Assembly (NCBI GenBank): GCA_025929895.1
Contig: JAICPI010000001.1
Span: 1 to 64,000 of the forward strand
Direction: 5' to 3'
DNA from: Thermoleophilia bacterium
Lineage (GTDB): Bacteria; Actinomycetota; Thermoleophilia; Gaiellales; Gaiellaceae
Length of the DNA: 64,000 nt
Shown: positions 1 to 14,116 of the stretch, one piece after another
How positions within the stretch are numbered: position 1 is the stretch's first letter
How the letters are laid out: every line of letters starts with the position of its first letter
Notes under the pieces: generated by a model
The model's input: only the letters and a program-made list of their open reading frames with translations
The model's database searches: none
Told to the model about the DNA's origin: nothing
Translations under genes and position numbers: made by a program

Positions 1-2
1 AG

Positions 3-200
3 CCCCTGAGCGCGAACGCCGTCTGGTACGCCCAGACCGGGGCGTTGGTCGTCGGCCACGTGCTCGGGCTCGTGATCGCGCACGACAAGGCGCTCGAGCT
101 GTTCGGCTCGACCAAGGTCGCGCTGCGGACCCAGTACGCGATGCTCGCGCTCATGGTCCTGTACACGGTCGGCGGGCTGTGGCTCCTCTCGCGGGGCTAG
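3..200 (+). CDS. C-terminal fragment of a polytopic membrane protein
   Basis: These are the last 65 codons of a gene that starts before the window. The visible part is strongly hydrophobic, with two probable membrane helices joined by a short charged loop, and it ends in TAG. The motif WYAQ followed by GHVLGL resembles the C-terminus of large actinobacterial membrane proteins sometimes labelled fenitrothion hydrolase-like; that is recall, not a search. Its 3' end overlaps the following small gene by 22 bp, which suggests co-translation. Confidence 0.6.
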   Translation, partial: PLSANAVWYAQTGALVVGHVLGLVIAHDKALELFGSTKVALRTQYAMLALMVLYTVGGLWLLSRG

Positions 201-325
201 CGCTCGCCCACGGCGGCACCGCCGGTCTCGTCGTCGAGCTCGCGACGCTCGTGGCCGTGGCGGGCCTGTTGATCTGGGCGGCGGTGAAGAGCCGCTCCTC
301 GGACCACGAAGAAGGCGACCGCTAG
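179..325 (+). CDS. Small single-span membrane protein, 48 aa
   Basis: A short ORF starting at a GTG inside the previous gene. Residues about 14-35 form one hydrophobic segment rich in Leu, Val and Ala, followed by a charged tail (KSRSSDHEEGDR). The stop codon lies in the loop of a perfect hairpin that probably ends the transcript. Size, topology and overlap suggest an accessory subunit to the upstream membrane protein; no family is recognised. A shorter version could start at the GTG at 251. Confidence 0.5.
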   Translation: MAPLAGLALAHGGTAGLVVELATLVAVAGLLIWAAVKSRSSDHEEGDR

Positions 326-334
326 GTCGCCTTC
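311..334. terminator. Bidirectional terminator-like hairpin
   Basis: A perfect 10-bp inverted repeat (GAAGGCGACC / GGTCGCCTTC) with the 4-base loop GCTA. It sits between the end of the small membrane gene on the plus strand and the end of hsp20 on the minus strand, so it can serve both. There is no long U tract. The loop contains the stop codon of the upstream gene. Confidence 0.6.
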
Positions 335-357
335 TCGTCGTTCGGCACGGCGTTCGG

Positions 358-828
358 TCAGGACTCGTGTGCCGTCCCTTCGATCGCCGACTGGGTGCCG
401 CCGACCTGGATCCGGCGCGGCTTCGCCTGCTCGGGCTTCGCGACGTGGACCTCGAGCACGCCGTTTCGGTAGTCGGCGCGGATCGCGTCCTCGCCCACGC
501 CCTGAGGCAGGCCGATCGTCCGGGTGAACGAGCCGAAGCGGCGCTCGAAGCGGTAGAACCGGTCGCCGTCGACCTTGTGCTCGCGCGAGCGCTCGGCGCT
601 CACGGTGAGCGCGCCGTCCTCGAACTCGACCGAGATGGCGTCCTCGGGGATCCCCGGGAGGTCGAACGCGTAGACGAGCTCGTCCTCCGTCTCCCAGACG
701 TCGACGGCAGGCACCCAGCTCTGGGTCGTCCGGCCGTTCCCCTCGAGCAGCCCGTTCATGAACCGGCTCATCTCGGTCTGGAGCGACGCCAGCTCACGCA
801 GCGGCTCCCAACGCACCACGGTGGTCAT
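358..828 (-). CDS. Small heat-shock protein, Hsp20/alpha-crystallin family
   Basis: ATP-independent holdase chaperone that binds unfolding proteins in the cytoplasm. The 156-residue length is typical. An alpha-crystallin domain spans about residues 40-140, with the family signature near its end (YRNGVLEVHVAKP), preceded by a variable arm containing WVPAVDVWETEDE. The ATG at 828 has a strong Shine-Dalgarno sequence (AGGAGGT) and lies about 35 bp downstream of a near-consensus promoter at 864-892. The gene is monocistronic and ends against a bidirectional hairpin. Confidence 0.93.
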   Translation of the reverse strand: MTTVVRWEPLRELASLQTEMSRFMNGLLEGNGRTTQSWVPAVDVWETEDELVYAFDLPGIPEDAISVEFEDGALTVSAERSREHKVDGDRFYRFERRFGSFTRTIGLPQGVGEDAIRADYRNGVLEVHVAKPEQAKPRRIQVGGTQSAIEGTAHES

Positions 829-863
829 GCGTTACCTCCTCTCGGCTGATTGATGGTGACGCC

Positions 864-892
864 AGCATAAAACCTGAGCGTCTGCTTGTCAA
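864..892 (-). promoter_or_regulatory. Housekeeping-type promoter of hsp20
   Basis: On the minus strand the -35 hexamer is TTGACA (887-892), the spacer is 17 bp and the -10 hexamer is TATGCT (864-869). This is an unusually good match to the sigma-70 consensus for such a GC-rich genome. The -35 overlaps a short palindrome, CTTGTCAAG (885-893), which could be an operator; the repressor is unknown. Confidence 0.8.
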
Positions 893-921
893 GTCCCTGG
901 GACGGATAGGATCTCCGCCCC

Positions 922-1866
922 GTGAGCGCCGTCGCCGACGACCTGAAGGGCAGGGACTTCACCCGGGTCGCCGACTGGAGCGGCGACGAGCTCGTCCGGG
1001 TGCTCGACCTCGCGGACGAGCTGAAGCGCGCACACGCGGCGGGCGAGGAGCGCCGCCTGCTCCCCGGCCGGACGCTCGGGATGATCTTTCAGAAGCCCTC
1101 GACCCGCACCCGGGTCTCGTTCGAGGCCGGGATCTGGCAGCTCGGCGGCGTGGGGCTCTACCTGTCGGCCTCGGATCTCCAGCTCGGCCGCGGCGAGACG
1201 ATCAAGGACACGGGGCTCGTGCTCTCTCGCTACCTCGACGCGATCATGATCCGGACCTTCGCCCAGGCCGACGTCGACGAGCTCGCCCGCAACACGGAGA
1301 TCCCCGTCATCAACGGTCTCACCGACCAGGCGCACCCGTGCCAGGCGCTCGCGGACGTGATGACGATCCGCGAGCGGCTGGGGCGGCTCGAAGGCGTGCG
1401 CCTCGCCTATCTCGGGGACGGCAACAACGTCTGCGCCTCGCTGATGGTCGCCGCCGCGAAGCTCGGGATGCACTTCACCGCCGCGGTCCCCCCGGGCTAC
1501 GAGCCGGACGCCGGGGCGCTCGACGCGGCGCACACGGCCGCGGAGGACACCGGCGCCGCCGTGCGCGTCGTCCACGACGCCCGCGAGGCGGCCGAGGGCG
1601 CGGAGGTCTTCTACACCGACGTCTGGACGAGCATGGGGCAAGAGGAGGAGCGCGAGCGGCGGCTGCGCGACCTCGCGGGCTACGGCGTCACCGACGAGCT
1701 GCTCGCCCTCGGCGAGGAGGACGCGATCGTGCTCCACTGCCTGCCGGCGCACTACGGCGAGGAGATCAGCGAGGCGATCGCCCACGGGCCGCAGTCGGCG
1801 ATCTGGGACGAGGCCGAGAACCGCCTCCACAGCCAGAAGGCGCTGCTCGCGCTGGTCGTCAGGTGA
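922..1866 (+). CDS. argF: Ornithine carbamoyltransferase
   Basis: Cytoplasmic enzyme of arginine synthesis that makes citrulline from ornithine and carbamoyl phosphate. The 314 residues carry the carbamoyl-phosphate motif STRTR (60-64), HPCQ (138-141), an ornithine-domain DGNN segment near 166, and HCLP near the C-terminus. The GTG at 922 is chosen because it gives the normal family N-terminus. The stop overlaps the GTG of the rhomboid gene (GTGA), so the two are translationally coupled, although no metabolic link is obvious. No other arg gene is visible nearby. Confidence 0.95.
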   Translation: MSAVADDLKGRDFTRVADWSGDELVRVLDLADELKRAHAAGEERRLLPGRTLGMIFQKPSTRTRVSFEAGIWQLGGVGLYLSASDLQLGRGETIKDTGLVLSRYLDAIMIRTFAQADVDELARNTEIPVINGLTDQAHPCQALADVMTIRERLGRLEGVRLAYLGDGNNVCASLMVAAAKLGMHFTAAVPPGYEPDAGALDAAHTAAEDTGAAVRVVHDAREAAEGAEVFYTDVWTSMGQEEERERRLRDLAGYGVTDELLALGEEDAIVLHCLPAHYGEEISEAIAHGPQSAIWDEAENRLHSQKALLALVVR

Positions 1867-2561
1867 TCCCGCTCAGGGACAACGTCCCGACGCGGCACTT
1901 CCCGGTCGTCACGGTGGGACTGATCGTCGCGAACGTGCTCTCGTACTTCGTGTTTCAGGAGGGAACGACCGTCGCTGCGGACGGGCCGGTGCTCGAGTAC
2001 GCGTACCAGCCGTGCGAGGTGAACGACTCCTGCCCCGTTCAGGGCCAGGACTGGCCGTTGACCTCGTTCACGTCGATGTTCATGCACGGCGACATCCTCC
2101 ACCTCGGCGGCAACATGCTCTTCCTCTGGATCTTCGGCAACAACGTCGAGGACACGATGGGCCGCGTGCGCTACCTCGTCTTCTATCTCCTCGCCGGCTA
2201 CGCCGCGACGGCGCTCCAGACGTTCGTCACGCTCGAGATCTCACCCAACTCGGCGGACATCCCGAACCTCGGTGCCTCGGGCGCGATCTCCGGCGTGCTC
2301 GGGGCGTACCTGCTGATCCTCCCCCACGCGAAGGTGCTCACGGCGATCGTCCTCGGCTTCATCTTCTTCCTGCGCGAGATCCCGGCGCTCTTCTTCCTCG
2401 GCGTGTACTTCCTCTTCCAGCTCTGGCAGGCCGGCGGCCAGTGGACGAACCCGCCGGAGGGAGGCGGCGTCGCGGTCTTCGCGCACGTGGGCGGCTTCCT
2501 GTTCGGGCTCGCCGCGGTCTACCTCTTCCGCACCCGCAAGCCGCTCCGACCCACCCATTGA
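1863..2561 (+). CDS. Rhomboid-family intramembrane serine protease
   Basis: A 232-residue polytopic membrane protein expected to cleave transmembrane substrates. The catalytic dyad is visible: Ser139 in GASG and His208 in FAHVGG, with the HxxxN pair His80/Asn84 in the earlier helix. An extracytoplasmic loop (about 36-66) carries two Cys residues that could form a disulfide. The GTG at 1863 overlaps the argF stop. The next gene starts in a TTGA overlap, so argF, the protease and a zincin form one operon. The substrate is unknown. Confidence 0.9.
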   Translation: MIPLRDNVPTRHFPVVTVGLIVANVLSYFVFQEGTTVAADGPVLEYAYQPCEVNDSCPVQGQDWPLTSFTSMFMHGDILHLGGNMLFLWIFGNNVEDTMGRVRYLVFYLLAGYAATALQTFVTLEISPNSADIPNLGASGAISGVLGAYLLILPHAKVLTAIVLGFIFFLREIPALFFLGVYFLFQLWQAGGQWTNPPEGGGVAVFAHVGGFLFGLAAVYLFRTRKPLRPTH

Positions 2562-2860
2562 CCTTCGAGGAGCACGTCACCCGGGCCCTCGACTCGATCC
2601 CGCCGGACCTTGCTCGAAGGATGGAGAACGTCGCGATCGTCGTCGAGGACGAGAACCCCGACGAGCCCGATCTCCTCGGCCTCTTCGAGGGCGGCGGCGA
2701 CTACATGCCCGACAAGGTGACGATCTACCGGCTCCCGCTCGAGGCCGACTTCCCCGATCCCGCGGAGCTCGAGCGGGAGATCCGGATCACCGTCCTGCAC
2801 GAGCTCGGGCACTACTTCGGGATGGACGAGGACCGCCTCGGCCGCCTCGGATATGAATGA
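2558..2860 (+). CDS. Minimal zincin-like metallopeptidase, about 100 aa
   Basis: A small cytosolic protein of the short zincin family formerly labelled DUF1025. The C-terminal motif HELGHYFGMDED (His81, Glu82, His85) is the HExxHxxGxxD zinc site. The upstream YRLPLE segment and the length of about 100 residues fit this family. The start is a TTG that overlaps the rhomboid stop (TTGA). It gives the family's usual N-terminus, and no in-frame ATG exists before the conserved region. The biological substrate of the family is not established. Confidence 0.82.
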   Translation: MTFEEHVTRALDSIPPDLARRMENVAIVVEDENPDEPDLLGLFEGGGDYMPDKVTIYRLPLEADFPDPAELEREIRITVLHELGHYFGMDEDRLGRLGYE

Positions 2861-2915
2861 GCTGAGAGCGCGTTTCGGCGGGAATGGCCCCGGGGTACCG
2901 GGCGTTTGAAGAGGT

Positions 2916-3155
2916 ATGACGCTGACAGAGATCCACACGGAGATCGAGCGCGCCAGCGAGCGCCGCACTGAGCTCTACGGCCTGCTCTCACAAGGACACG
3001 ACCCTCAGACCGCGGCCGAGCTCAAGGAGCTGAACGAGCGTCTCGAGGCCCTCTGGAACGAGCACCGCGCCCTCCGGGCCCGCCTGCGCTTCGGCGATCC
3101 GGAGGCGATCGTCAAGCGAGCCCGCCTCGAAGAGCGCCTCGAGCGCGCGGCCTAG
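2916..3155 (+). CDS. Small helical protein, DUF2630-like
   Basis: A 79-residue, highly charged, all-helical protein (Ile-Glu-Arg and Leu-Glu-Glu heptad-like runs) with an ATG at 2916. The pattern of a Leu-rich helix, then LWNEHRALRARLRFGDPEA, then a charged tail resembles the actinobacterial DUF2630 family, in which a W-x-x-x-R-x-x-R-A-x-x-x-F-G core is conserved. Its function is unknown. It is followed by a hairpin and tRNA-Ala. Confidence 0.65.
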   Translation: MTLTEIHTEIERASERRTELYGLLSQGHDPQTAAELKELNERLEALWNEHRALRARLRFGDPEAIVKRARLEERLERAA

Positions 3156-3168
3156 CCGAGACGACCTG

Positions 3169-3192
3169 AGCGGGGGCTACACTGCCCCCGCT
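3169..3192 (+). promoter_or_regulatory. Hairpin with a -10-like hexamer in its loop, upstream of tRNA-Ala
   Basis: A perfect 9-bp inverted repeat (AGCGGGGGC / GCCCCCGCT) encloses the loop TACACT, which also reads as a -10 hexamer placed 11 bp before the tRNA 5' end. No convincing -35 was found. It may be the terminator of the upstream gene, the tRNA promoter, or both. Confidence 0.4.
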
Positions 3193-3194
3193 AC

Positions 3195-3267
3195 GGGGCG
3201 TTAGCTCAGCTGGGAGAGCGCCGCCTTTGCAAGGCGGAGGTCGCCGGTTCGATCCCGGCACGCTCCA
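3195..3267 (+). tRNA. tRNA-Ala (TGC)
   Basis: A complete 73-base cloverleaf. The acceptor GGGGCGT pairs with ACGCTCC (one G-U). The anticodon loop TTTGCAA in a CCGCC/GGCGG stem gives anticodon TGC. The T-arm contains GGTTCGATCCC and the discriminator is A. No CCA is encoded. It reads GCA and, by wobble, other Ala codons. Confidence 0.95.
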
Positions 3268-3302
3268 CTCCTCCGAGGGCTTCTGACTGGGCGGTCCGCG
3301 GT

Positions 3303-3650
3303 CTACGGACGGACGTCCAGCTCCTTCACGAGCCGCTTCGGAGCGACGATCCGATAGCTCTCCTCGATCCAATCTCGAGCGACGTCGAGCGTCACGCCCT
3401 CTGCGTCCAGGGGGACGTTCACCCAGCCGGCGCGGCCCAGGCCGTAGCCCGTCGGCTCGCTGCCCTCGATCGACATCGCGTGCGGGTGCGACTCTTCGAG
3501 CTTGACGGTGATCATCGGCGTCTTCGAGCGGTCACGGCCGAGGAAGACGAACACCTTGCCGTTGACCTTGGCGACCCGCTCGCCCCACGGGAAGTCCTCG
3601 GCGGCGCCCGGGAGAGACAAGGCGAATCTGCGGAGGTCAGCCTTGCGCAC
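3303..3650 (-). CDS. MmcQ/YjbR-like protein
   Basis: A 115-residue cytosolic protein of the YjbR (MmcQ, CyaY-like fold) family. Family marks are LPGAAEDFPWG near the N-terminus, KVNGKVFVFLG in the middle, and W-V-N-V-P-L near residue 80. Members are annotated as DNA-binding because of the fold, but no reaction is known. The GTG at 3650 is chosen because it starts the conserved domain. It overlaps the end of the amidase gene by 14 bp, so this is the last gene of the regulator-amidase-YjbR operon. Confidence 0.82.
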   Translation of the reverse strand: MRKADLRRFALSLPGAAEDFPWGERVAKVNGKVFVFLGRDRSKTPMITVKLEESHPHAMSIEGSEPTGYGLGRAGWVNVPLDAEGVTLDVARDWIEESYRIVAPKRLVKELDVRP

Positions 3651-4371
3651 GCAGGTAGGACGCCAGCGCCCGTGCGATCGCGTTCGCTTCTCGTTGCCTG
3701 AACCCCGACGACGAGAGCAGGCGCGCGTCCGTTTCGTTCCGCATGTTGCCCGCCTCGAGAAAGACCTTCGGGACGTCGGAGAGGTTGAGACCGCCGAGGT
3801 CGCTGCGGCTGGAGAGGCCCGCTCGCGCGGTGTACGTGGCGTAGGGCATCCCGGTGCCGGTCCGGTAGGCGCGCCGGAGGGCGAGGGCGAGCCGGTACGA
3901 GGGGGCCGCGATGTCGTCGGTGAGGCCGCGGATCCTCGCCGGGTGGATGACATGGAAGCCTCGTCCGCCTGCGGGGCCGCCGTCCGCGTGGATCGAGACC
4001 GCGGCGTCGGCGCGCACGCGGTTGCCGATCGCCGCGCGGCGCGTGATGCACGGGCCCCAGCCGGTGTTCGTGCCGCGGGTCAGCACGACCCGCGCCCCTG
4101 CGCGGCGAAGCAGCACCGCCAACCGCAACGCCACGTCGAGGTTGTGCGCGTGCTCGGGGTAGCCTGCGGCCGTCCGCGCGCCGACCGTGTCACACGCTTT
4201 GCGGTGGGTGCCGGCGTCGACGAGTCGCGCGATCCGCGCCGCGTGGCGGGCGTTGCCGCCGTTGTGGCCCGGATCGATCGCGATCGTCCTGCCTCGCAGC
4301 GACGGAGGAGGTTGGCCCGCTGCCTCTCCGACGAGTGCGACGAGCGCCAGGACGGCGACGAGGATCTTCAC
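3637..4371 (-). CDS. Secreted N-acetylmuramoyl-L-alanine amidase (Amidase_3)
   Basis: A zinc amidase that cleaves the bond between muramic acid and the stem peptide of peptidoglycan. An N-terminal signal peptide (about 1-20) precedes a catalytic domain with zinc ligands His36 (DPGHNGG), Glu73 and His128 (SIHADGG), and the catalytic Glu206 (FLEAGNMRNE). The 244 residues contain no cell-wall-binding repeats, so it is a bare catalytic module. The ATG overlaps the stop of the response-regulator gene, suggesting that the regulator and a cell-wall enzyme are made together. Confidence 0.92.
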   Translation of the reverse strand: MKILVAVLALVALVGEAAGQPPPSLRGRTIAIDPGHNGGNARHAARIARLVDAGTHRKACDTVGARTAAGYPEHAHNLDVALRLAVLLRRAGARVVLTRGTNTGWGPCITRRAAIGNRVRADAAVSIHADGGPAGGRGFHVIHPARIRGLTDDIAAPSYRLALALRRAYRTGTGMPYATYTARAGLSSRSDLGGLNLSDVPKVFLEAGNMRNETDARLLSSSGFRQREANAIARALASYLRAQG

Positions 4372-5006
4372 AGGCCCTGCAGGCCGTTCGCCCTCGCGAG
4401 CGCCGCCGCCTCGCCCCTGCGACGGACGCAGAGCTTCTCGAGCACGCTATGGACGTGGTTCTTGACGGTCGTCACCTCGATCGAGAGGGTCGCAGCGATC
4501 TCCTTGTTCGACAAGCCCTTCTCGATCAGCCGGAGCACCTCCCGTTCGCGGCTCGTCAGGGTGCTCAGGTCGGCGTGGTCGCCGTTCGCCGCCAGGGACG
4601 CCAGCCGACGCATCAGCGTCGCGACGATCTGCGGGGACGCCAGCTGCCCGTCGTGGGTGGCCTGGCGAACGCGGTAGACCAGCTCGCTGACCGAGGCCGT
4701 GGCGGGGACGTATCCGACCGCACCCGCCTCGACGCAGGCCAGCACGTCGCGCTCGACCTCACGCACTCCCACAGCGACGACACGTGCGCCGGGAAACGCC
4801 TCAGCCAGGCGGTCGGTCGTGTTCCGGCTGCCGAGCATCGTCACGTCGACCAGGATGACGTCCGGTTGCTCCCGCGACGCGAGCGCGGCAGCCTCCTCGG
4901 GACTCGAGGCGATCGCCGCCTCGAAGCAGTGCCGTCGCAGCGACTGCGCCAACGCCTCGCAGTAGAACCGCACCTGCCCCACGGCGAGGACGCGGATCAT
5001 GGGCAA
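4368..5006 (-). CDS. LuxR/NarL-type regulator with an atypical receiver domain
   Basis: The 212-residue protein has a receiver-like domain (about 4-120) and a C-terminal LuxR helix-turn-helix (about 145-200, LTSREREVLRLI then KEIAATLSIEVTTVKNHV). The would-be phospho-acceptor Asp54 (ILVDVTML) is present. The acidic pair normally near residues 9-10 is replaced by Val-Gly (LAVGQ), and the conserved Lys of the GYVLK region is replaced (GYVPAT). It probably works without classical phosphorylation. There is no adjacent kinase gene. It leads an operon with a peptidoglycan amidase. Confidence 0.88.
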   Translation of the reverse strand: MPMIRVLAVGQVRFYCEALAQSLRRHCFEAAIASSPEEAAALASREQPDVILVDVTMLGSRNTTDRLAEAFPGARVVAVGVREVERDVLACVEAGAVGYVPATASVSELVYRVRQATHDGQLASPQIVATLMRRLASLAANGDHADLSTLTSREREVLRLIEKGLSNKEIAATLSIEVTTVKNHVHSVLEKLCVRRRGEAAALARANGLQGL

Positions 5007-5086
5007 GTGGGACCCCTCTCACGATCGCCGCAGCAACGAGTTGTGGCGGCCGCCACGCGACGACTCCAATCGTTGCTTCCGGCAAC

Positions 5087-5116
5087 ACCGTAGATCGGAC
5101 GGCCGTCGACGGTCAA
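5087..5116 (-). promoter_or_regulatory. Candidate promoter of the regulator-amidase operon
   Basis: On the minus strand TTGACC (5111-5116), an 18-bp spacer and TACGGT (5087-5092) lie about 80 bp upstream of the regulator start. Between promoter and start lies a perfect 14-bp palindrome, GTGGCGGCCGCCAC (5043-5056), possibly an autoregulatory site. Confidence 0.45.
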
Positions 5117-5245
5117 GCAGGTGGGGATCGAAAGAACTAGGAGCGCCGGGATCGCATTTCCATCCCCCGGCCGATAGCACTCGCTTCCGCCCCGGACTAG
5201 CGTCGCCGTGCGCTTGCGGCACGCCTACGAGGTCAGGAGCGAGCA

Positions 5246-5683
5246 ATGGCCGAGCAACGAGGCAAGACGGAGATCGAGGAGATCTCCGGCAACGAGATCA
5301 AGGCGCACCTGAAGGACACGTACGCCGACCCGGACGCGGCCGGCAGGTTCTTCGACGAGCTGATCGAGACGCGCCAGAAGGCGCTCGATCGCTTCAAGGA
5401 CGAGCTGAACGGCGACGAGAAGCTTCTGGAGGGGTTCGCCCGGAACCCGGTCGGGCTGCTCAACGAGCGCAAGCTCCTGGGCCCGCTCGACCAGCTCACG
5501 CTGGAGGGCCTGCGGAATCCCTTCATCGACTTCCCGTGGCCGTGGCCGATCTGCCGGATCGTGTGCAGGCTGGAGTGCTCCACAGAGGTCCACTGGGTCT
5601 GCATCGGCTGGTGGCCGCTGCGGATCTGCTGGCCCGTCTTCCACGTGCACTGCCGGTGGGTCTGCAGGATCGTGTGCGACTGA
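5246..5683 (+). CDS. Two-part small protein with a symmetric Cys/Trp-rich tail
   Basis: Not recognised. Residues 1-95 are charged and helical (a leader-like region with FFDEL, RNPVGLL and LGPLDQLTLEGL). Residues 96-145 switch abruptly to an aromatic, cysteine-rich tail with eight Cys at 103, 107, 111, 119, 128, 136, 140 and 144. The gaps are X3, X3, X7, X8, X7, X3, X3, a mirror-symmetric pattern, and the pentapeptide CRIVC occurs at both ends. The tail has seven Trp. The ATG at 5246 has an AGGAG site. The architecture resembles a peptide precursor (leader plus core) or an oxidatively folded exported peptide. No signal peptide or modification enzyme is seen. Neighbours are small membrane proteins and a membrane metalloprotease on the same strand. 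Confidence 0.75.
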   Translation: MAEQRGKTEIEEISGNEIKAHLKDTYADPDAAGRFFDELIETRQKALDRFKDELNGDEKLLEGFARNPVGLLNERKLLGPLDQLTLEGLRNPFIDFPWPWPICRIVCRLECSTEVHWVCIGWWPLRICWPVFHVHCRWVCRIVCD

Positions 5684-6120
5684 GCGCCGGGCACTTGCGG
5701 GGAGGGCTCGAGCCCTCCCCGCGCCGCTCGCCCGAGCACGAGGTCGTGCGAACGCTCGGCGACGTCGAGGCGATGCTCGGCCGTGCCCGGTTCCTGCGGC
5801 GCACGCCGCGGGCGAGGCTCGACGTGGGCCTCCTTCCGAGCCAGGAAGCTGCGCCCATCCAGGCGCGAATCAACCGGCGCGCGGCGGAGTGCGGCTGCGA
5901 CGCGGGCAGCGTCGTCGGGGCGGCCGTGCTGCTCGGGTACCTGGGCTACCTCCTGCTCACCGTAGGCTCGCCGGCTCGCTGGGGCCTCGGAGAGCTGCTC
6001 GCCGGGACGAGCCTCGTGATCGGCGCTGCGCTGGCGGGCAAGGCGGCGGCGGTGATCCAGGCGCGCGTTCAGCTGGTTCGCGAGCTCGAACACCTGCGCG
6101 CCCGCCTGGCGGCGAGGTAG
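5674..6120 (+). CDS. Small membrane protein with two predicted helices
   Basis: Not recognised. As drawn (148 aa from GTG 5674, overlapping the previous stop) residues 1-75 are basic and soluble, two membrane helices follow (about 77-97 and 103-123), and the C-terminus is a charged amphipathic helix. The first 20 codons run through a perfect 26-bp palindrome, so the true start may instead be the GTG at 5746 or the ATG at 5773; neither has a clear Shine-Dalgarno sequence. Two Cys (ECGCD) lie just before the first helix. It lies between the Cys/Trp-rich protein and the membrane zincin and ends 2 bp before the latter. Confidence 0.6.
   Translation: MRLSAGHLRGGLEPSPRRSPEHEVVRTLGDVEAMLGRARFLRRTPRARLDVGLLPSQEAAPIQARINRRAAECGCDAGSVVGAAVLLGYLGYLLLTVGSPARWGLGELLAGTSLVIGAALAGKAAAVIQARVQLVRELEHLRARLAAR
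5697..5722. repeat. Perfect 26-bp palindrome between the first two genes of the locus
   Basis: The left arm GCGGGGAGGGCTC is followed directly by its exact reverse complement, with no loop. It starts 14 bp after the stop of the Cys/Trp-rich gene. As RNA it would form a very stable hairpin without a U tract. It could limit read-through so that the first gene is made in excess, as is common in precursor-peptide operons, or protect its mRNA 3' end. Confidence 0.8.
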
Positions 6121-6122
6121 CC

Positions 6123-7088
6123 GTGGCGACCGTCTGCAAGGAGATCCACGAGTGGATCGAAGAGCAGATCGAGAAGCCGATCGAGGAGTGGGAGAACCGT
6201 CAGGAGCAGCGGTGCCGGGAGGAACCGTGCAACTGGTGGATGCTCTGCCTGAACAAGCTCTTCTGCTGGCTCGTCTGGGTTCTCGTCAAGGTCATCCGTT
6301 GGGTCGTGGTCACGGTCGGAAAATGGGTCGTCCGGGTCGTGTGCGAGGTGGTGAACCTCGTGCTCGACGTCATCGGCTTCGTCGTCGGGCTGATCCTGAG
6401 CATCCCGATCATCGGCGGGATCATCCGCACGGTCCTCAACTGGCTGACCGAGATCGTCTGGCGGATCGTGGGACTGATCGACCTCGGGCTGAGCCTGATC
6501 GGCGTCCGGTTCGAGAAGCGGATGTACGTCGGCGTGATCATCCCGAGCCGGGACGGACGGCCGATCACGACCGAGGCGCAGATCCTCCCGCAGATCGACA
6601 AGGCCAAGGAGATCTACAAGAACCTGTGCAACATCAAGATCGTCTACACCGGTGCGTGCACCGCCGGCACCGATGCGCCGGACGGGGCGCTCGAGATCGG
6701 CTGCGACGCGAGCGGCTTCTTCTCGGACTGGTGGCTCGGCGGCTCGTACATCGAGTTCGTGAGCGCGACCTGCAAGTTCGACGGGGGCTGGCGCCGGGTC
6801 CTGGGCTACGGCGCCCAGATCATCGTCTACTGCGTTCCCGAGGTCCTTCCGGAGACCGCCACGTCCGACACGGTCGGCTGCAGCTTCACGTCGACGCACA
6901 ACTACGTCGTCGTCGAGCCGACGGCGAGCGCGTCGACCGCCGCGCACGAGATCGGCCATGCGTGCTGGCTACCGCACGTCGACGATTCGGCGAACCTGAT
7001 GTTCCCGAGCCTCCTGTCGGCCAACCCGACGCTCACGAACGGTCAGATCGCGCTCGTGCGGTGGAGCAAGCACTGCGTCTACTTCTGA
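6123..7088 (+). CDS. Membrane-anchored metzincin-like metalloprotease
   Basis: The 321-residue protein has a charged N-terminal helix, a Cys/Trp-rich stretch (Cys31, 36, 42, 48 with neighbouring Trp), then long hydrophobic segments (about 48-125) that should span the membrane at least twice. A C-terminal domain (130-321) carries HEIGHACWLPH: His275, Glu276, His279 and His285 form HExxHxxxxxH, followed by a Met-turn-like NLMFPS (Met293). The usual Gly of HExxHxxGxxH is Trp282. Eight further Cys suggest an oxidising compartment. The GTG at 6123 sits 2 bp after the previous stop. By position it is the likely processing protease for this locus; the substrate is inferred, not shown. Confidence 0.72.
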   Translation: MATVCKEIHEWIEEQIEKPIEEWENRQEQRCREEPCNWWMLCLNKLFCWLVWVLVKVIRWVVVTVGKWVVRVVCEVVNLVLDVIGFVVGLILSIPIIGGIIRTVLNWLTEIVWRIVGLIDLGLSLIGVRFEKRMYVGVIIPSRDGRPITTEAQILPQIDKAKEIYKNLCNIKIVYTGACTAGTDAPDGALEIGCDASGFFSDWWLGGSYIEFVSATCKFDGGWRRVLGYGAQIIVYCVPEVLPETATSDTVGCSFTSTHNYVVVEPTASASTAAHEIGHACWLPHVDDSANLMFPSLLSANPTLTNGQIALVRWSKHCVYF

Positions 7089-7098
7089 GAGGGAGGTC

Positions 7099-7254
7099 AT
7101 GGCCCAACGCCAACCGAGCCCGGACGACGCCCCGGCCGCGGCGGAACGAAACCAGGGCTGCACCGCGCCGCACCCGGCCGTCTCACTGCTCTTGTCCCTG
7201 ACGGCTTTCGGGCTCGTGGCCGTCGCGGTGGTCGTGCTGGTCGCGCTGCTCTGA
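7099..7254 (+). CDS. Small C-tail-anchored membrane protein, 51 aa
   Basis: The ATG at 7099 is preceded by GAGGGAGG. A Pro/Ala-rich polar N-terminus of about 27 residues with a single Cys is followed by one hydrophobic helix (about 28-51) that runs to the very end. This tail-anchored topology is shared by small accessory proteins. It is 10 bp downstream of the metalloprotease gene and is probably the last gene of the 5246-7254 operon. No family is recognised. Confidence 0.62.
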   Translation: MAQRQPSPDDAPAAAERNQGCTAPHPAVSLLLSLTAFGLVAVAVVVLVALL

Positions 7255-7261
7255 GCCGCCG

Positions 7262-7495
7262 TCAGCGCTTCCGGGCGGTCGCCTTGCCGCCCTTGCGGCC
7301 CGCCGCTTTCTTCTGGGCGGTCGTGCCCCCCTGGCTCGACGACGAGCGCGACGAGCCCGAGTGCGACTTCTTCCCGCCTCGGCTCGACGCCCCGGGGGAG
7401 TTCGCGATCTTCGCCGCGCGCTCCTTCGACATGCCCTTGTCCTTCAACGCCTCGTACTGCTTCTCGTTCTTCACGCTCGGTCGCTTGCCGGGCAC
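7262..7495 (-). CDS. DUF7218-like small basic protein
   Basis: A 77-residue, Lys/Ser/Gly-rich protein. The N-terminus (MPGKRPSVKNEKQYEALKDK, then GMSKERAAKIANSP) matches a short actinobacterial family I recall as DUF7218, with a KNEKQYEALKDKG core followed by a disordered basic tail. Its function is unknown; the composition suggests nucleic-acid contact. The start is GTG at 7495. It is convergent with the preceding operon, 7 bp apart. Confidence 0.8.
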   Translation of the reverse strand: MPGKRPSVKNEKQYEALKDKGMSKERAAKIANSPGASSRGGKKSHSGSSRSSSSQGGTTAQKKAAGRKGGKATARKR

Positions 7496-7531
7496 GTGAT
7501 CCTCCTTGGTCGTCGTGCGGTGCTGTTCCCG

Positions 7532-8845
7532 CTAGCGGACGACGTACACATGCGCGGCGAGCGAACCGAAGCGGTCGCGGATCGCTCCGCCGCGCACGGG
7601 TAGCCCCCGGTTCTCGCCGAAGACGCGCGCTGTGCCGCGAAGGTTCGGCGCCGAGACGCTCGCCCGCACGTGGCGCCACGACGTGTTGACGGCGATCACG
7701 TACGTCGTGCCGTTGAAGCGGCGCGCGCCGACACGGACCGGGCCGACCGACGCCGAGGCCGGAACCTCGGTCGCGAGCAGCGCCGGCGCGAGCGCCGAGA
7801 TCTCCGTGTTCAGCCGCGTGATCGCGCGCGCGATCGGCGGCTGCCAGTGCTCCGGGAAGTAGCCGATGCCGCGCGCGCCCCCCGCGATCGCGAGCCATGT
7901 CTCGGCGCGGATCGTCAGCGGCGTCGGCGCGAGCTCGGGGCGGCTACGGCAGAACTCCATCGGCGCAACCTCGATCCACTGGTACGTCGCGCGCGGGCCC
8001 GCGAGCGCCGCGAGCTCGCGCTGCGCCTCGAAGACCGCCCGGAACGCGTCTCGGCGGCACCAGACCTGGAGCGGGTAGAGGTCGAGGCCGATCATGTCGG
8101 CGCGCGCGACGAACCGCGGGTAGACGCTGCGGCCGCCGGGCGGGCCGGCCGACCCGCTGTACACGTGCCCGCTCAGCGTGAGGAACGTGACGCGCCTCGT
8201 CTGCTGCCAGGGCGGGTGGAACGGCAGCGCCTCGGGCGCCACGTGCAGGTCGGCCTCGTCGAGGTGGTACCAGCCGATCGCCCCGCGTCCGTCGGCGACG
8301 TCCTTCCAGCGCGCGGGGATGGCGGAGACGGCGCGCCCGCGCAGGAGGTCGAGCTGCACCCACGGCGTGCTGCAGCCGCTGCCCATGTAGAGGTTGACCC
8401 CCGCTTCGAGGCTCTGCGCGTACGCCCAGTCGCACTGGCCGTAGACCATGCGCGGGAAGAACGGCTGCCCGTCGACGAAGAGCGTGCGGTCGATCACCCC
8501 GGCGACCGTCCAGGCAGGGAAGATCGCGGTCGTGAACGTGCCCACGGTGCGCGCAGTCCTTCGGCCGCTGCGGGCGGTCAGGCGATACCGGTACGTCGTC
8601 GCCGGCTCGAGCGAGCCGAGGAGAGCCCGACCGGACGTGGCGGGCTTCCGCGGCGTGCGGAGCCAGATGCCGAGGTCCGCCGTGCGCCCGACCTCGAGCG
8701 TCACGCGGGCGGAGGCGCTCGTCGACCACCGGAACGTCGCGGCGTGGGCGCCGGGCTCGACCGAGCCGCTCACCGTGAGCGGCGCGGCTTCGGCCGCCGG
8801 CCCGAATGCGAGCGCCGCGAGGGAGACCCCCACCCAGCGAAGCAT
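7532..8845 (-). CDS. Secreted protein with a barrel-like, glycosidase-like domain
   Basis: A 437-residue exported protein. Residues 1-20 are a signal peptide. Residues about 21-105 look like a fibronectin type III-like beta domain ending in ATTYRYRLTARSG. The rest has alternating beta/alpha character with segments such as FVDGQPFFPRMVYGQCDW, IGWYHLDEADL and MIGLDLYPLQVW, reminiscent of TIM-barrel glycosidases; the Asp/Glu in HLDEAD could be catalytic. A small beta domain closes the protein. No specific GH family is claimed. It is divergent from the hydrolase at 8904. Confidence 0.6.
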   Translation of the reverse strand: MLRWVGVSLAALAFGPAAEAAPLTVSGSVEPGAHAATFRWSTSASARVTLEVGRTADLGIWLRTPRKPATSGRALLGSLEPATTYRYRLTARSGRRTARTVGTFTTAIFPAWTVAGVIDRTLFVDGQPFFPRMVYGQCDWAYAQSLEAGVNLYMGSGCSTPWVQLDLLRGRAVSAIPARWKDVADGRGAIGWYHLDEADLHVAPEALPFHPPWQQTRRVTFLTLSGHVYSGSAGPPGGRSVYPRFVARADMIGLDLYPLQVWCRRDAFRAVFEAQRELAALAGPRATYQWIEVAPMEFCRSRPELAPTPLTIRAETWLAIAGGARGIGYFPEHWQPPIARAITRLNTEISALAPALLATEVPASASVGPVRVGARRFNGTTYVIAVNTSWRHVRASVSAPNLRGTARVFGENRGLPVRGGAIRDRFGSLAAHVYVVR

Positions 8846-8903
8846 CCGCTCGACGGTAGCCTCCGGCCGTGAGGCGCGTGTTAATTCTCGCCAGGCGCCT
8901 CCC

Positions 8904-9581
8904 GTGAGACGTTCGTACGGTCCGCACGCGGACCAGTGGGTCGACGTTCGAGCCGTTCGGGACGCTCGCGCCGTCGTCGTCGTGATCCACGGGGGCTTCT
9001 GGCGGGCGCGCTACGGCGCCGACCTGATGGACCCGCTCTGCGACGACCTCGCGACGCGCGGGTACCGCGCCTGGAACGTCGAGTACCGCCGCGTCGGGGC
9101 AGGAGGCGGCTGGCCGTCGACCTTCGAGGACGTCGAGACCGCGATGCGGGCAGCCGCGGCCGAGGGAACGCCGCTCGTGACGCTCGGCCACTCCGCGGGC
9201 GGGCACCTCGCCCTCTGGGCGGCAGCCCGCTGCGGCGCCGACCTCGCGGTCGCGCAGGCCGGGGTCACGGACCTGCGCGAGGCCTGGGAGCGCGGCCTCA
9301 GCTCGCGGGCCGCCGGCGAGCTGCTCGGCGGCTCGCCGGACGAGATCCCCGAGCGCTACGCTGCTGCCTCGCCCGCCGAGCTTCTCCCCCTCGGTCTGCG
9401 GCAACTCGTCGTCCACGGACGGCGCGACGACATCGTGCCGCCCGAGCTGAGCCGGACGTACGTCGAGCGCGCGCGTGCGGCGGGGGACGACGTCGAGCTC
9501 GTCGAGTGCGACGAGGGCCACTTCGAGTGCCTCGACCCCGCCTCCGAGAGCTGGGCCGCGATCGTGGAGCGGCTGCCGTGA
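8904..9581 (+). CDS. Alpha/beta hydrolase, probable kynurenine formamidase
   Basis: A 225-residue alpha/beta hydrolase with an oxyanion motif HGGFW (29-33), nucleophile Ser97 in GHSAGG, an acid (Asp175 or Asp176) in RRDDIVP and His206 in DEGHF. HGGFW and the size match the esterase/formamidase branch that hydrolyses N-formylkynurenine. The strongest support is position: its stop overlaps the kynureninase start (GTGA). Formamidase and kynureninase catalyse consecutive steps of tryptophan breakdown (N-formylkynurenine to kynurenine to anthranilate plus alanine). No tryptophan dioxygenase gene is visible in the window. Confidence 0.8.
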   Translation: MRRSYGPHADQWVDVRAVRDARAVVVVIHGGFWRARYGADLMDPLCDDLATRGYRAWNVEYRRVGAGGGWPSTFEDVETAMRAAAAEGTPLVTLGHSAGGHLALWAAARCGADLAVAQAGVTDLREAWERGLSSRAAGELLGGSPDEIPERYAAASPAELLPLGLRQLVVHGRRDDIVPPELSRTYVERARAAGDDVELVECDEGHFECLDPASESWAAIVERLP

Positions 9582-10807
9582 CGCGCGCCGAGGCGGAGGC
9601 CCTCGACCGCGACGATCCGCTCGCCGCGTTCCGCGAGCGCTTCGTCGTCGACGACGACGCCCTGATCTACGCCGACGGCAACTCGCTCGGGCGGCTCCCG
9701 CGCGAGACGGCCGCACGCCTGCACAGGCGCGTCGACGAGTGGGGCTCGAGGCTCGTACGCGCGTGGCCGGACTGGATCGACCTGCCGCTCGAGGTCGGCG
9801 ACGCGCTGGCCGCTGGCGTGCTCGGCGCGAGACCGGGCGAGGTCCTGGTCTCGGACTCGACGACCGTCAACCTCTTCAAGCTCGCGTCGGCGGCGCGAGA
9901 GCTTCGCCCCGGCGCGATCGTCACCGACGCCGGGAACTTCCCGACCGACCGGTACGTGTTCCAGGGCCTCGGCGGCGTCGTCCAGTTCGAGACCGATCCG
10001 ATCGACGGGCCGACCCCCGAGGACGTCGCCCACGCGATCGACGGCCGCGACGTCTCGCTCGTCTCCCTCTCCCACGTCGCGTATCGCTCCGGCGCGCTCG
10101 CGGATCTCCGCGCGATCACGGCCGTCGCGCACGAGGCGGGAGCGCTCGTCCTCTGGGACCTGAGCCACTCCGCCGGTGCCGTCCCGGTCGAGCTGGACGC
10201 CTCCGGTGCAGACCTGGCCGTCGGCTGCACCTACAAGTACCTGAACGCCGGACCGGGAGCACCCTCGTTCCTCTACGTCCGCGGAGAGCTCCAGAGCGCG
10301 CTCCGCTCGCCGATCTGGGGCTGGTTCGGGCAGCGCGACCAGTTCGCGATGGGGCCCGCGTACGACCCGGTGGCCGGGATCGGCAAGTTCCTCGCCGGCA
10401 CCCCGCCGGTCCTCGACCTGGCCGCGGTCGAGGTCGGAGTGTCCCTCGTCGCCGAGGCGGGGATCCTCGCGCTCCGCGAGAAGAGCGTGGCCCTGACCGA
10501 GCTGGCGGTGCGGCTCCACGACGAGCGACTCGCGCCGCTCGGCCTCGAGCTCGGCTCGCCGCGCGAGCCCGAGCGGCGCGGGGCGCACGTCTCCGTGCGC
10601 CACCTGGACGCCTGGCGCATCTGCCGGGCCGCGATCGAGCGCGCGGGGCTCGTCCCGGACTTCCGCGCGCCCGACTCGATCCGGCTCGGGTTCCCGCCGC
10701 TCTACACGCGCTTCGTCGACGTCTGGGACGCCGTCGAGCGGCTCGCGCGCCTCGTCGAGACGGGGGAGTACCTCGAGGTCGACCCGGGAACGTCCCGCGT
10801 GACGTGA
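9578..10807 (+). CDS. kynU: Kynureninase
   Basis: A pyridoxal-phosphate enzyme that cleaves L-kynurenine to anthranilate and alanine. The 409 residues are normal length. Family marks are YADGNSLGRLP (31-41), the PLP-phosphate site SDSTTVNLFK (92-101), WDLSHSAGA with Asp194 contacting the pyridine nitrogen, and the Schiff-base Lys220 in TYKYLNAGPG. GTG starts overlap at both ends with the formamidase-like hydrolase and with udgX, giving a tightly coupled three-gene operon. Confidence 0.95.
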   Translation: MTRAEAEALDRDDPLAAFRERFVVDDDALIYADGNSLGRLPRETAARLHRRVDEWGSRLVRAWPDWIDLPLEVGDALAAGVLGARPGEVLVSDSTTVNLFKLASAARELRPGAIVTDAGNFPTDRYVFQGLGGVVQFETDPIDGPTPEDVAHAIDGRDVSLVSLSHVAYRSGALADLRAITAVAHEAGALVLWDLSHSAGAVPVELDASGADLAVGCTYKYLNAGPGAPSFLYVRGELQSALRSPIWGWFGQRDQFAMGPAYDPVAGIGKFLAGTPPVLDLAAVEVGVSLVAEAGILALREKSVALTELAVRLHDERLAPLGLELGSPREPERRGAHVSVRHLDAWRICRAAIERAGLVPDFRAPDSIRLGFPPLYTRFVDVWDAVERLARLVETGEYLEVDPGTSRVT

Positions 10808-11406
10808 CCGCCGCGCCGTACGTGCCCGACTCGCGGAGCCTCCCGAAGCTCCGGGGGGCGGCGACCGTGTGCCATGGGTGCGACCTCTGGCGCACCGCGA
10901 CGCAGACGGTGTTCGGCTCGGGCACCCGGACCGCCGACGTGATGTTCGTCGGCGAGCAGCCGGGCGACCAGGAGGACCAGCAGGGCGAACCGTTCGTCGG
11001 CCCGGCGGGGCGGATGCTGGACAAGGGCCTCGAGGAGGCCGGCATCGACCGCGGTCGCGTCTACGTCACGAACGCGGTCAAGCACTTCAAGTGGCAGCCT
11101 CGCGGCAAGCGGCGCATCCACCAGAAGCCGAACTGGACCGAGCTGGCCGCCTGCCGCCCCTGGCTCGACGCGGAGCTCGCGGCCGTCAAGCCGCGCGTGC
11201 TCGTCTGCCTGGGCGCGACGGCCGCCCAGGGTCTGCTCGGCCGTCAGTTCCGCGTCACGAAACAGCGGGGCGAGCCGGTCGACTCGCCCCTCGCGGAGAT
11301 CGTGCTCGCGACGATCCATCCGTCGGCGATCCTGCGGTCGGACGACCGCGAGCGCGAGTACGCCGGCTTCGTCGCCGACCTGCGGAAGGTCGCCGCCCTG
11401 CTCTAG
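10804..11406 (+). CDS. UdgX-type uracil-DNA glycosylase
   Basis: A 200-residue family 4-like glycosylase. It has motif A GEQPGDQED (50-58) with PFVGPAGRMLD, the distinctive basic loop GKRRIHQKP (101-109) and HPSA (172-175). Cys23, 26, 117 and 135 are placed to hold a 4Fe-4S cluster. The loop with His106 is the hallmark of UdgX, whose equivalent His forms a covalent bond to the abasic sugar, so the enzyme locks onto uracil sites in DNA. The GTG at 10804 overlaps the kynU stop; co-translation with a catabolic gene is unexpected. The end overlaps the convergent BON gene by 4 bp. Confidence 0.9.
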   Translation: MTAAPYVPDSRSLPKLRGAATVCHGCDLWRTATQTVFGSGTRTADVMFVGEQPGDQEDQQGEPFVGPAGRMLDKGLEEAGIDRGRVYVTNAVKHFKWQPRGKRRIHQKPNWTELAACRPWLDAELAAVKPRVLVCLGATAAQGLLGRQFRVTKQRGEPVDSPLAEIVLATIHPSAILRSDDREREYAGFVADLRKVAALL

Positions 11407-11837
11407 CCGGCTAGCCGCGGCGTGTGGAGCAGGTTCTCCACTCGGTCGACGCCCTGCACGGAGCGGACGCGCCGCTCGAGGTCCTCGATCACGGACGCGT
11501 CGCCGAGCTCGCCGCGCAGGTACACGACGCCCTCCTCGACGTTGACGCTGACGTCCCCCTTCGGGGCGTCGGCCGGGCGGAAGACCTCCGACTCGACCTT
11601 CGCCTTGAGCGTCTGGTCGTCGAAGGACTTCGGCTCCTCGCGCAGGTGCGTCGCCTTCTGCTTCAAGCCGTGGGCCTCCGCGGCGACGGCCCGGCCCGCC
11701 CCGGCGACACTGCGGCCGCGACGCCGGAAGAACGCGAGCACGCGGTCGCGCGCCATGTTGCGGCGGCGCGCGCCCTGCTGCGGATCGAGGAAGTACGCAA
11801 GCGCGGCACCGATGGCCACGCGTCTCAAGAGCTTCAT
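11403..11837 (-). CDS. BON-domain protein with a membrane-proximal N-terminus
   Basis: The 144-residue protein starts with a short hydrophobic stretch followed by YFLDPQQGARRRNMARDR, a motif common to YtxH-like and BON proteins of actinobacteria. Residues about 75-140 form one BON domain (LKAKVESEVFR ... GVVYLRGELGD ... RSVQGVDRVENLL), thought to bind phospholipid or help keep the envelope intact. It may stay associated with the membrane. It is convergent with udgX. Confidence 0.85.
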   Translation of the reverse strand: MKLLRRVAIGAALAYFLDPQQGARRRNMARDRVLAFFRRRGRSVAGAGRAVAAEAHGLKQKATHLREEPKSFDDQTLKAKVESEVFRPADAPKGDVSVNVEEGVVYLRGELGDASVIEDLERRVRSVQGVDRVENLLHTPRLAG

Positions 11838-11895
11838 TCGCTGATCAACCCCTCTCGCTCATGGTGAACGAGGGGTGGTCTACCCCGGCGTCCCT

Positions 11896-11924
11896 CCGAA
11901 GAAAACGCGGAGCGTTTTCTTCGG
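11896..11924. terminator. Hairpin after the 11926-12234 gene
   Basis: A perfect 13-bp inverted repeat (CCGAAGAAAACGC / GCGTTTTCTTCGG) with loop GGA. It begins 1 bp past the stop of the minus-strand hypothetical gene, so it is placed as a terminator for it, and it lies upstream of the BON gene. The U residues are in the stem rather than after it. Confidence 0.65.
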
Positions 11925-11925
11925 C

Positions 11926-12234
11926 TCAGTCGCCCCAGTCGAAGTCCCGCGAGCGGCTCCAGAGACTCTCGTCGGTCTCCTCGCCCACGACGGGCTCCTC
12001 GCCGGGCCAGCCCAGCGGGCTCGCGACGGCGACGACCTCGGGGGCCTCCAGCCCCTCCAGCGTCTCCTCGAGACGAGCCTGCTCCTCGGTCTTGAACAGC
12101 GGGTGGTTCTCGAACGGATCCTCGGACTTGTAGCGACCGATCGGCAGCCTCGTCTCGAGGAGCGAGTTGCGGTCGCGGAGCTCCAGATGCTCCTGGATCA
12201 CCTGCGCGAACAACGACGGGGTCTCTACGGGCAT
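11926..12234 (-). CDS. Hypothetical acidic protein, 102 aa
   Basis: Not recognised. It starts at ATG 12234 behind a strong GGAGGAGAG site; a longer reading from 12342 would overlap the upstream gene and lacks a site. The protein begins MPVETPSLFAQVIQEHLELR, contains RLPIGRYKSEDPFENHPLFKT and ends in a very acidic, Trp-containing tail (DESLWSRSRDFDWGD). It is probably soluble and partly disordered. It is flanked by a diguanylate cyclase upstream and a terminator hairpin downstream. Confidence 0.7.
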   Translation of the reverse strand: MPVETPSLFAQVIQEHLELRDRNSLLETRLPIGRYKSEDPFENHPLFKTEEQARLEETLEGLEAPEVVAVASPLGWPGEEPVVGEETDESLWSRSRDFDWGD

Positions 12235-12322
12235 CTCTCCTCCTGCTCGGGGGCGGGGTCCTGGGCCTCGAACGGCCGATTGTAAGGCCGCGGTGAACTC
12301 TGACGAAAGCTGGGGCGGCAGG

Positions 12323-14116
12323 TTAGCGAACATTGCGGACATCCGACTGGCCCCTGGGGAGGCTCACGCGGTTCTTTCCGGCCCGTTTTGCCTCGTACAG
12401 AGCCGAATCCGCGGTCGCCACGAGGTCTTCGGGCTCCAGGCCGGGCTCGTGGACCGCGACCCCGAAACTCGCCGTGATCCGCACGGGGACGCCCTCCGGC
12501 GTCAGAAGCGTCCGGCCCTCGACGTAGTCCCGGATCCGCTGGGCGAGCCGGAGCGCGCCCTCGCCGTCCGTCCCCGGGAGCACGAGCATGAACTCCTCGC
12601 CGCCCCAGCGGGCAGCGACGTCCACGTCGCGCACCGACCGCTCGAGGATGCGGGCGAACTCGCGCATGACCGTGTCCCCGACGGGGTGCCCGTGCGCGTC
12701 GTTGACGGCTTTGAAGTCGTCGAGGTCGCCGACCACGATCGAGAGCGGCGTCCCGAACCGCCTCGCGCGCGAGACCTCCGTCCTCAGCGCCTCCTCGCAC
12801 TGGCGCCGGTTCGCGAGGCCGGTGAGCCCGTCGACGAGCGCCTGGCGCTCGACGATCCGGTGCAGCCGCGCGTTGTCGAGCGCCACGACCGACTGGCCGA
12901 CGAGCGAGACGGCGGTCAGCCGTGCGTCGTCGTCGAAGCTCCGGCCGAAGAGGAACAGCGTCCCGAACGTCTCGTGGCCCGCCGCGAGCGGCAGCTCGAT
13001 CTGGTCGGCGCCGCGGCCCGGCGAGCCCACCTCGACCACCTGTCCCTCGGCGCCGATCAGCATCCCGCCGGCCGCGCCCGTCGCCTCGACGGCCGTCTCG
13101 ACGATCGCGCGCAGGAGCTGGTCCGTGTCGTGCGTCGCGGCAAGCGCGTCGCCGAAGCGCGCGACCGCCTCGCGCAGCCGGTGGCGTTCCGACTCGAGCT
13201 CCTCCAGCCGCTGCTGGAGCTGGTCGGCCATCTGGTTGAAGGCGTTGCCGAGGCGCGCAAGCTCGTCGCGGCCGCGGACGGGGACGCGCTCGTCGAGCTT
13301 GCCGCGCGCGATCGCGTTCGCCGCACGGCCGATGCTCGAGACGGTGCCGACGATCGAGCGGCCCTCGAAGTACGCGACGAGCGCGATCACGAACAGGGCC
13401 GTGAGGAGCCCGAGCAGGAGACGTCCCTGGATCTCGGCCGTGGTCGCGTCGATCGCGTCGTGCGAGGCGAGCACGCCGAGCGTGGCGCCCGGCCGCTCCC
13501 CGATCGTCGCCGCGATGAGCACGCGGTAGCGGCTGTCGCCGACGGTGACCGTCGTCGGGCGGTCGGCGGGAACGTCGAGGCGCGCCTCGGACCAGCCGGC
13601 ACCCGCGACGACGCGTCCACGGTCGACGACGACGAACTGCTCGCCGTCGGAGAGCCCGGACCGGCGCGTCACGCGCCGCAGCAGCTCCGCGTCGAACGGG
13701 CCCGAGGCGATCACGTAGCCGAGCGGGCCTTCCGGCCCGACCACGACGACCTGCCGCTCGGCGGCGAGCTGCGGCCGCGGGCCGACGGAGAAGTCCGCGC
13801 TCTCGACGCGCAGGTTCGGATAGCGAAGCAGCCGCGCGGCGGCGGCCGCGTCGCCGCGCTCGAGCGCCGCCTGGAAGCGCACGTCGTTCGCGAGCGCGGC
13901 TGCCTGCTGCGCCGTCGCGTCGAGATCCTCGCTGTAGGCCTCGACCGCCGCGCGCAGCCCGGACTGGAGGCGCGCGTCGACCCGCCGTACCTCGCTCTGC
14001 TTCGCGACCGCGCTGAAGCCCCAGAACGCGGCGATTGCGGGGAGCAGCGAGAGCAGCACGAAGTAGCCGACGAGCTTGAGCTTGAAGCTGCGCGTGCTCG
14101 GCCGGTTCAGGGGCAC
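12323..14116 (-). CDS. Membrane diguanylate cyclase (sensor-HAMP-GAF-GGDEF)
   Basis: Makes the second messenger c-di-GMP. From GTG 14116 (preceded by GAGG) the protein has 597 residues. It has a first membrane helix near 15-35, a periplasmic sensor region to about 245, a second helix, HAMP (about 275-325), GAF-like (about 345-415) and a C-terminal GGDEF domain with active site GGEEF (505-509). RDVD lies exactly five residues before it, the inhibitory I-site (RxxD), so product feedback is expected. The periplasmic ligand is unknown. An upstream in-frame ATG at 14251 exists but lacks a site. Confidence 0.9.
   Translation of the reverse strand: MPLNRPSTRSFKLKLVGYFVLLSLLPAIAAFWGFSAVAKQSEVRRVDARLQSGLRAAVEAYSEDLDATAQQAAALANDVRFQAALERGDAAAAARLLRYPNLRVESADFSVGPRPQLAAERQVVVVGPEGPLGYVIASGPFDAELLRRVTRRSGLSDGEQFVVVDRGRVVAGAGWSEARLDVPADRPTTVTVGDSRYRVLIAATIGERPGATLGVLASHDAIDATTAEIQGRLLLGLLTALFVIALVAYFEGRSIVGTVSSIGRAANAIARGKLDERVPVRGRDELARLGNAFNQMADQLQQRLEELESERHRLREAVARFGDALAATHDTDQLLRAIVETAVEATGAAGGMLIGAEGQVVEVGSPGRGADQIELPLAAGHETFGTLFLFGRSFDDDARLTAVSLVGQSVVALDNARLHRIVERQALVDGLTGLANRRQCEEALRTEVSRARRFGTPLSIVVGDLDDFKAVNDAHGHPVGDTVMREFARILERSVRDVDVAARWGGEEFMLVLPGTDGEGALRLAQRIRDYVEGRTLLTPEGVPVRITASFGVAVHEPGLEPEDLVATADSALYEAKRAGKNRVSLPRGQSDVRNVR

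Follow-up and report, generated by a model that had tools for sequence, protein, structure and literature searches.

The locus lies at positions 5246-7254 of the window, that is, of the whole 64-kb stretch of DNA analysed here, taken from contig JAICPI010000001.1 of a Thermoleophilia bacterium (Gaiellaceae; assembly GCA_025929895.1). It consists of four open reading frames (ORFs) on the same strand, in the order P0001, P0002, P0003 and P0004. The first of them, P0001 (5246-5683, forward strand), codes for 145 amino acids: a helical, leader-like region (approximately residues 1-95) is followed by a predicted C-terminal hairpin domain (residues 103-144) rich in cysteine and tryptophan. A perfect, GC-rich palindrome of 26 bp (5697-5722) separates it from P0002 (approximately 5746-6120, forward strand), a small membrane protein with a CGC motif and, after it, two predicted membrane helices; its start codon is uncertain. 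P0003 (6123-7088, forward strand) starts with GTG and codes for 321 amino acids, divided between a Cys/Trp-rich hydrophobic half (approximately residues 1-125) and a domain of metzincin fold (approximately residues 130-321). The latter contains the zinc-binding motif HEIGHACWLPH (residues 275-285; 6945-6977, forward strand), where Trp282 stands at the position of the classical metzincin glycine. The last gene, P0004 (7099-7254, forward strand), codes for a micropeptide of 51 amino acids with a single helix and a conserved cysteine just N-terminal of it (GCTAPHP). Both small membrane proteins announced in the preliminary description of this DNA are thus present, but they stand on either side of the protease, P0002 upstream and P0004 downstream.

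The families had been called undescribed, and this holds: no Pfam or NCBIfam family matches above its cut-off, PHROGs and PADLOC gave no significant match, and a literature search found no published description of the locus. Divergent from P0001, across a gap of 239 bp, lies a LuxR-type response regulator recognised by eye (4368-5006, reverse strand), which could be the controller of P0001.

The cysteine-rich end of P0001

P0001 is a real gene, because a homologue 50% identical to it occurs in a different genus of the family (genome G060; L012:4977-5414, reverse strand) and synonymous change between the two exceeds nonsynonymous change (dS 1.10, dN 0.46). The differences number 56, 40 and 75 at the three codon positions, third positions differing most. 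This homologue was the sole relative found in genome contigs, viral contigs and the class and phylum samples, and plasmids gave no match. Weak matches in two genomes (G121 and G880) contain internal stops and were taken as chance; matches to the cysteine spacing pattern elsewhere in the order were also assigned to chance, since a reversed control pattern gives more of them. Upstream of the homologue there is a frame of about 735 codons (L012:5530-7737, reverse strand), broken in-frame by TAA and TAG. It matches no family, and in the order no relative of its longest piece (L012:5530-6741) was found; it may represent a pseudogene, three genes or something else.

Reading of the sequence confirmed the mirror-symmetric array of eight cysteines in P0001, the seven tryptophans within the final 50 residues and the pentapeptide CRIVC at both ends (residues 103-107 and 140-144). 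The cysteines occupy residues 103, 107, 111, 119, 128, 136, 140 and 144, with gaps of 3, 3, 7, 8, 7, 3 and 3 residues (C-x3-C-x3-C-x7-C-x8-C-x7-C-x3-C-x3-C; 5552-5677, forward strand). For eight cysteines in a 42-residue span with fixed ends, a post hoc calculation gives a chance of 3e-4 for mirror symmetry. As a control, all six frames of the window were inspected for stop-free stretches of at most 60 amino acids with eight cysteines, and two of the five were mirror-symmetric. Because the window contains this second symmetric stretch, symmetry alone is weak evidence and no rare signature. The second stretch (approximately 40400-40530, reverse strand) reads CPVC...CPVC...CTNC...CPYC and resembles a double zinc ribbon of the ordinary kind.

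The symmetry is best explained, with moderate support from two sequences and a low-confidence model, if the end of P0001 forms a long amphipathic beta-hairpin with a four-rung disulfide ladder. It is favoured because of the constant sum of paired positions, the matching strand register, the alternating faces and the joint loss of the second and seventh cysteines (C2 and C7). The residue numbers of every mirrored cysteine pair sum to 247. In the single-sequence AlphaFold2 model the strands comprise residues 103-120 and 127-144, and their ends sum to 247 too (mean pLDDT 55, hairpin blocks approximately 51-75); a fold search with this model returned nothing significant. In the hairpin register all cysteines lie on one face, which is hydrophobic except for one threonine and one proline, and the opposite face is more polar. 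Permutation gives p = 0.003 for this alternation in P0001 and p = 0.0002 in the homologue, and a cross-strand E110-R137 pair is kept in both. The expected conservation of the cysteine spacing was found for three pairs, which the homologue retains at identical spacing and with no indel inside the hairpin, but one pair is lost. C2 and C7, the predicted partners, are both gone, replaced by Trp and Val; a mirrored double loss from eight cysteines has a chance of 1 in 7.

Two other readings of the same array have to be weighed. The cysteines might bind metal in the cytosol, as a zinc or iron site with no disulfides at all, which would suit a protein having neither a membrane helix nor an obvious signal peptide, the more so as a zinc ribbon is what the other symmetric array of the window resembles. 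We find this unlikely: P0001 has no CxxC knuckles, the spacing 4,4,8,9,8,4,4 holds all cysteines on one hydrophobic face, and the paired loss of C2 and C7 would leave half a site. The symmetry could also be fortuitous, if the Cys/Trp-rich tail is merely an octad repeat that adopts no defined fold. The homologue, whose cysteines read as a plain 8,8,9,8,8 period, points in this direction, as does the proportion of symmetric stretches in the control; the low calculated probability, the alternating faces and the charge pair shared by both homologues make a chance origin quite unlikely.

Under the ladder-hairpin reading, P0001 would be a rare, precursor-like protein, helical and leader-like over its first 95 residues or so. 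Its last 45 residues or so would fold as one antiparallel beta-hairpin, the centre of which falls between residues 123 and 124. After export the cysteines would be oxidised in the pairs 103-144, 107-140, 111-136 and 119-128, leaving the other face polar and rich in arginine at its outer ends. Prediction in this way supports the earlier suggestion of a leader-like front part joined to a cysteine peptide able to fold oxidatively. The likeliest role, judged by analogy, would be that of a secreted or surface membrane-active peptide, similar to an enlarged beta-hairpin antimicrobial peptide. Against this reading, the sequence of P0001 offers no explanation of export: nowhere is it hydrophobic enough for a membrane helix, and an obvious Sec signal is absent. 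Reading by eye of the ORFs of positions 1-14000 recognised no modification or export gene near it.

The P0002-P0003-P0004 module

When one genome per species was scanned, eight relatives of P0003 came up, 50-75% identical to it in alignment. They come from Acidobacteriota, Bacteroidota, Alpha- and Gammaproteobacteria and KSB1, specifically from a member of Pyrinomonadaceae (L018), Luteimonas and two other Gammaproteobacteria (L019, L024 and L025), Paracoccus and Marimonas (L020 and L022, the second being the strain Marimonas lutisalis GH1-19), Niastella (L021) and KSB1 (L023). At all eight loci a P0002-like gene shares the strand of the P0003 gene and lies no more than about 200 bp from it, preceding it in L018, L019 and L023-L025 and following it in L020-L022. 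A P0004-like micropeptide, with its cysteine just before the single helix, is encoded downstream of P0003 in seven of the eight, the exception being L021. The only other gene family to recur around these loci is a common one, aldo/keto reductase-like, with scattered paralogues. In the window, P0002 and P0003 are 2 bp apart and P0003 and P0004 10 bp apart, and this tight spacing supports an operon of the three genes.

In the phylum of the window, 397 genomes yielded no full-type P0003 other than that of the window's own genome. Lateral transfer of the three-gene module across phyla appears to be the simplest explanation. Phages and plasmids gave no match to P0003, and viral origin or carriage was rejected, for the matches in viral contigs (L033 and L034) cover the generic zinc motif only and the rest of the protein is absent from them. 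More distant relatives occur in the family to which the window belongs (L014-L017) and do not have the Cys/Trp-rich N-terminus. Two of these shorter metzincins (L014 and L015), in two genera, adjoin a deoC-like gene, recognised by eye, on the opposite strand.

AlphaFold2 applied to nine P0003 sequences gave a model with mean pLDDT 68, parts of the catalytic domain being poor. Helices at residues 2-33, 42-92 and 95-125 precede a mixed alpha/beta domain. With this catalytic domain, Foldseek retrieved structures of fragilysin and of the ADAM/reprolysin type at probability 1.00, with E as low as 4.7e-6 and TM as high as 0.63 of the target. Similarity to metzincins by sequence is weak. The earlier assignment to a metzincin-type protease is supported. 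The zinc-site residues H275, E276, H279 and H285 are invariant in the nine sequences, and so is the NLM of the Met-turn after the zinc motif. The glycine of the metzincin signature HExxHxxGxxH/D is reported to be strictly conserved (PMC3427221), but Trp or Leu takes its place in all nine; the shorter relatives L014 and L015 keep the canonical residue. Because of this replacement the catalysis by P0003 is not certain. Sequence and model together suggest a metzincin-fold metallopeptidase, with zinc binding and proteolysis as its putative activities.

The N-terminal half of P0003 is hydrophobic and amphipathic at 3.6 residues per turn (none of 5000 shuffles was as strong). An eleven-residue periodicity of the helix was also considered, but P0003 of the window gives no support for it (p = 0.56 at period 11). 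The corresponding N-termini of three relatives contain 12-16 cysteines (L023:9638-10003, L024:8474-8800 and L025:2732-3010), spaced 5,6,5,6,... and then 7,7,11,7,11,..., which would form an apparent stripe on one face if the segment is helical. Conserved cysteines in the catalytic domain of P0003 suggest an oxidising, extracytoplasmic location.

Read cautiously, the module would encode a protease associated with the membrane, along with two small partners. P0002 and P0004, the small membrane proteins containing cysteine, would probably assemble with P0003 or control it. The idea that P0004 is a cysteine-switch inhibitor with a C-x-x-P motif was dropped: L022-L025 keep the cysteine only, not the motif. 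The main rival is an antagonism cassette, with P0003 as a toxin-like effector whose hydrophobic half crosses or enters the membrane, and P0002, P0004 or both as membrane immunity proteins. A small, self-contained unit, patchy across phyla, free of fixed neighbours and accompanied every time by small membrane proteins, is what such a cassette might look like. As no delivery marker was recognised, PADLOC returned no match and the order of genes differs among loci, we regard the cassette as a real but minor possibility.

Relation between P0001 and the module

Outside the window, three of the four genes are found together, and P0001 is never with them. It is absent from the eight module loci, a profile search of the eight whole genomes gave only weak matches (E > 0.1), and the P0001-bearing genome G060 gave no match to P0003. 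The preliminary description suggested, as one of two possibilities, that the four genes form a precursor-and-processing system, and expected them to co-occur elsewhere. The expected adjacency exists elsewhere among P0002, P0003 and P0004 and fails for P0001 against the other three; the four-gene unit is therefore not supported.

In the processing system behind that proposal, P0003 would separate the hairpin of P0001 from its leader-like region by cleavage, and P0002 and P0004 would export it or confer protection. P0001 and the module do lie next to each other on one strand, P0001 and P0003 are both rich in cysteine and tryptophan, and the leader-like front of P0001 is more conserved than its core (50 of 94 alignment columns identical to the homologue against 22 of 52). 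With the module lacking P0001 in eight genomes, P0001 lacking a detectable P0003 in G060, and a strong hairpin standing between P0001 and P0002, we find such a system highly doubtful. This hairpin is formed in RNA by the palindrome at 5697-5722, just past the stop codon of P0001; it has a stem of 12 bp and no T run (z = -3.1), and a pattern search found no intrinsic terminator after P0001. The gap between P0001 and P0002 amounts to 62 bp if P0002 starts at 5746. GC3 is 0.87-0.95 across the genes, and codon composition is uninformative for separating P0001 from the module.

The locus is best divided into two neighbouring parts, P0001 and P0002-P0003-P0004, whose adjacency is probably incidental. 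A ladder hairpin in P0001 together with a separate membrane-protease module is the best explanation of the whole, and we hold belief and doubt in it about equal. The sequence patterns, the conservation of the module and its separation from P0001 are established, whereas disulfides, export, membrane activity, proteolysis and complex formation are inferred. In a bolder form, offered tentatively, P0001 would be the founding member of a bacterial family of genetically encoded four-rung ladder hairpins, which would exceed all known beta-hairpin antimicrobial peptides in length and be exported with a helical leader in front; P0002-P0003-P0004 would be a mobile membrane-protease system of a new type, its metzincin active site altered.

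Comparison with known systems

Antimicrobial peptides of the beta-hairpin class, among them tachyplesin/polyphemusin, protegrin and theta-defensin with their laddered disulfides, comprise fewer than 30 described families. They are 11-25 residues long, with net charge from +1 to +8, prefer Arg over Lys, have Val, Trp and Ile in their strands and mostly lack Glu and His (PMC13001179). P0001 resembles them in its mirror-spaced cysteines on a predicted antiparallel hairpin, in its amphipathic character, in its preference for Arg over Lys and in its Val, Trp and Ile. Register, faces and model agree on a single hairpin with predicted cross-strand disulfides. Residues 103-145 contain five Arg, two Glu and one Asp, a charge of +2 without His, which falls within the range of the class; the homologue is more positive. 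P0001 differs in the length of its hairpin, about 45 residues (42 from first to last cysteine), in the four rungs predicted in one ladder and in containing some Glu and His. It is also a bacterial gene, with a helical leader-like region and no obvious Sec signal.

With precursors of ribosomally synthesised and post-translationally modified peptides (RiPPs), P0001 shares a helical charged front and a short cysteine-rich end, and its predicted fold is weakly and non-significantly similar to that of SonA, a borosin precursor (E 2.2, probability 0.51). Unlike them, it matches no NCBIfam or Pfam leader family, and reading the ORFs of 1-14000 by eye revealed no modification enzyme. Should the ladder prove real, P0001 would contain an unusually long, covalently zipped bacterial beta-hairpin and offer a testable scaffold.

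P0003 resembles fragilysin and adamalysin/reprolysin metzincins in its domain fold, in the three His and Glu of its zinc site and in its NLM Met-turn. It differs from them in the replacement of the glycine by Trp or Leu, in its helical, Cys/Trp-rich hydrophobic half and in the two small membrane proteins encoded alongside. The module represents a membrane protease unit present across phyla, apparently moving horizontally and unnamed in the family libraries searched. It has a substitution at a glycine that metzincins are reported to conserve strictly, and its three genes make a defined set on which function could be tested.
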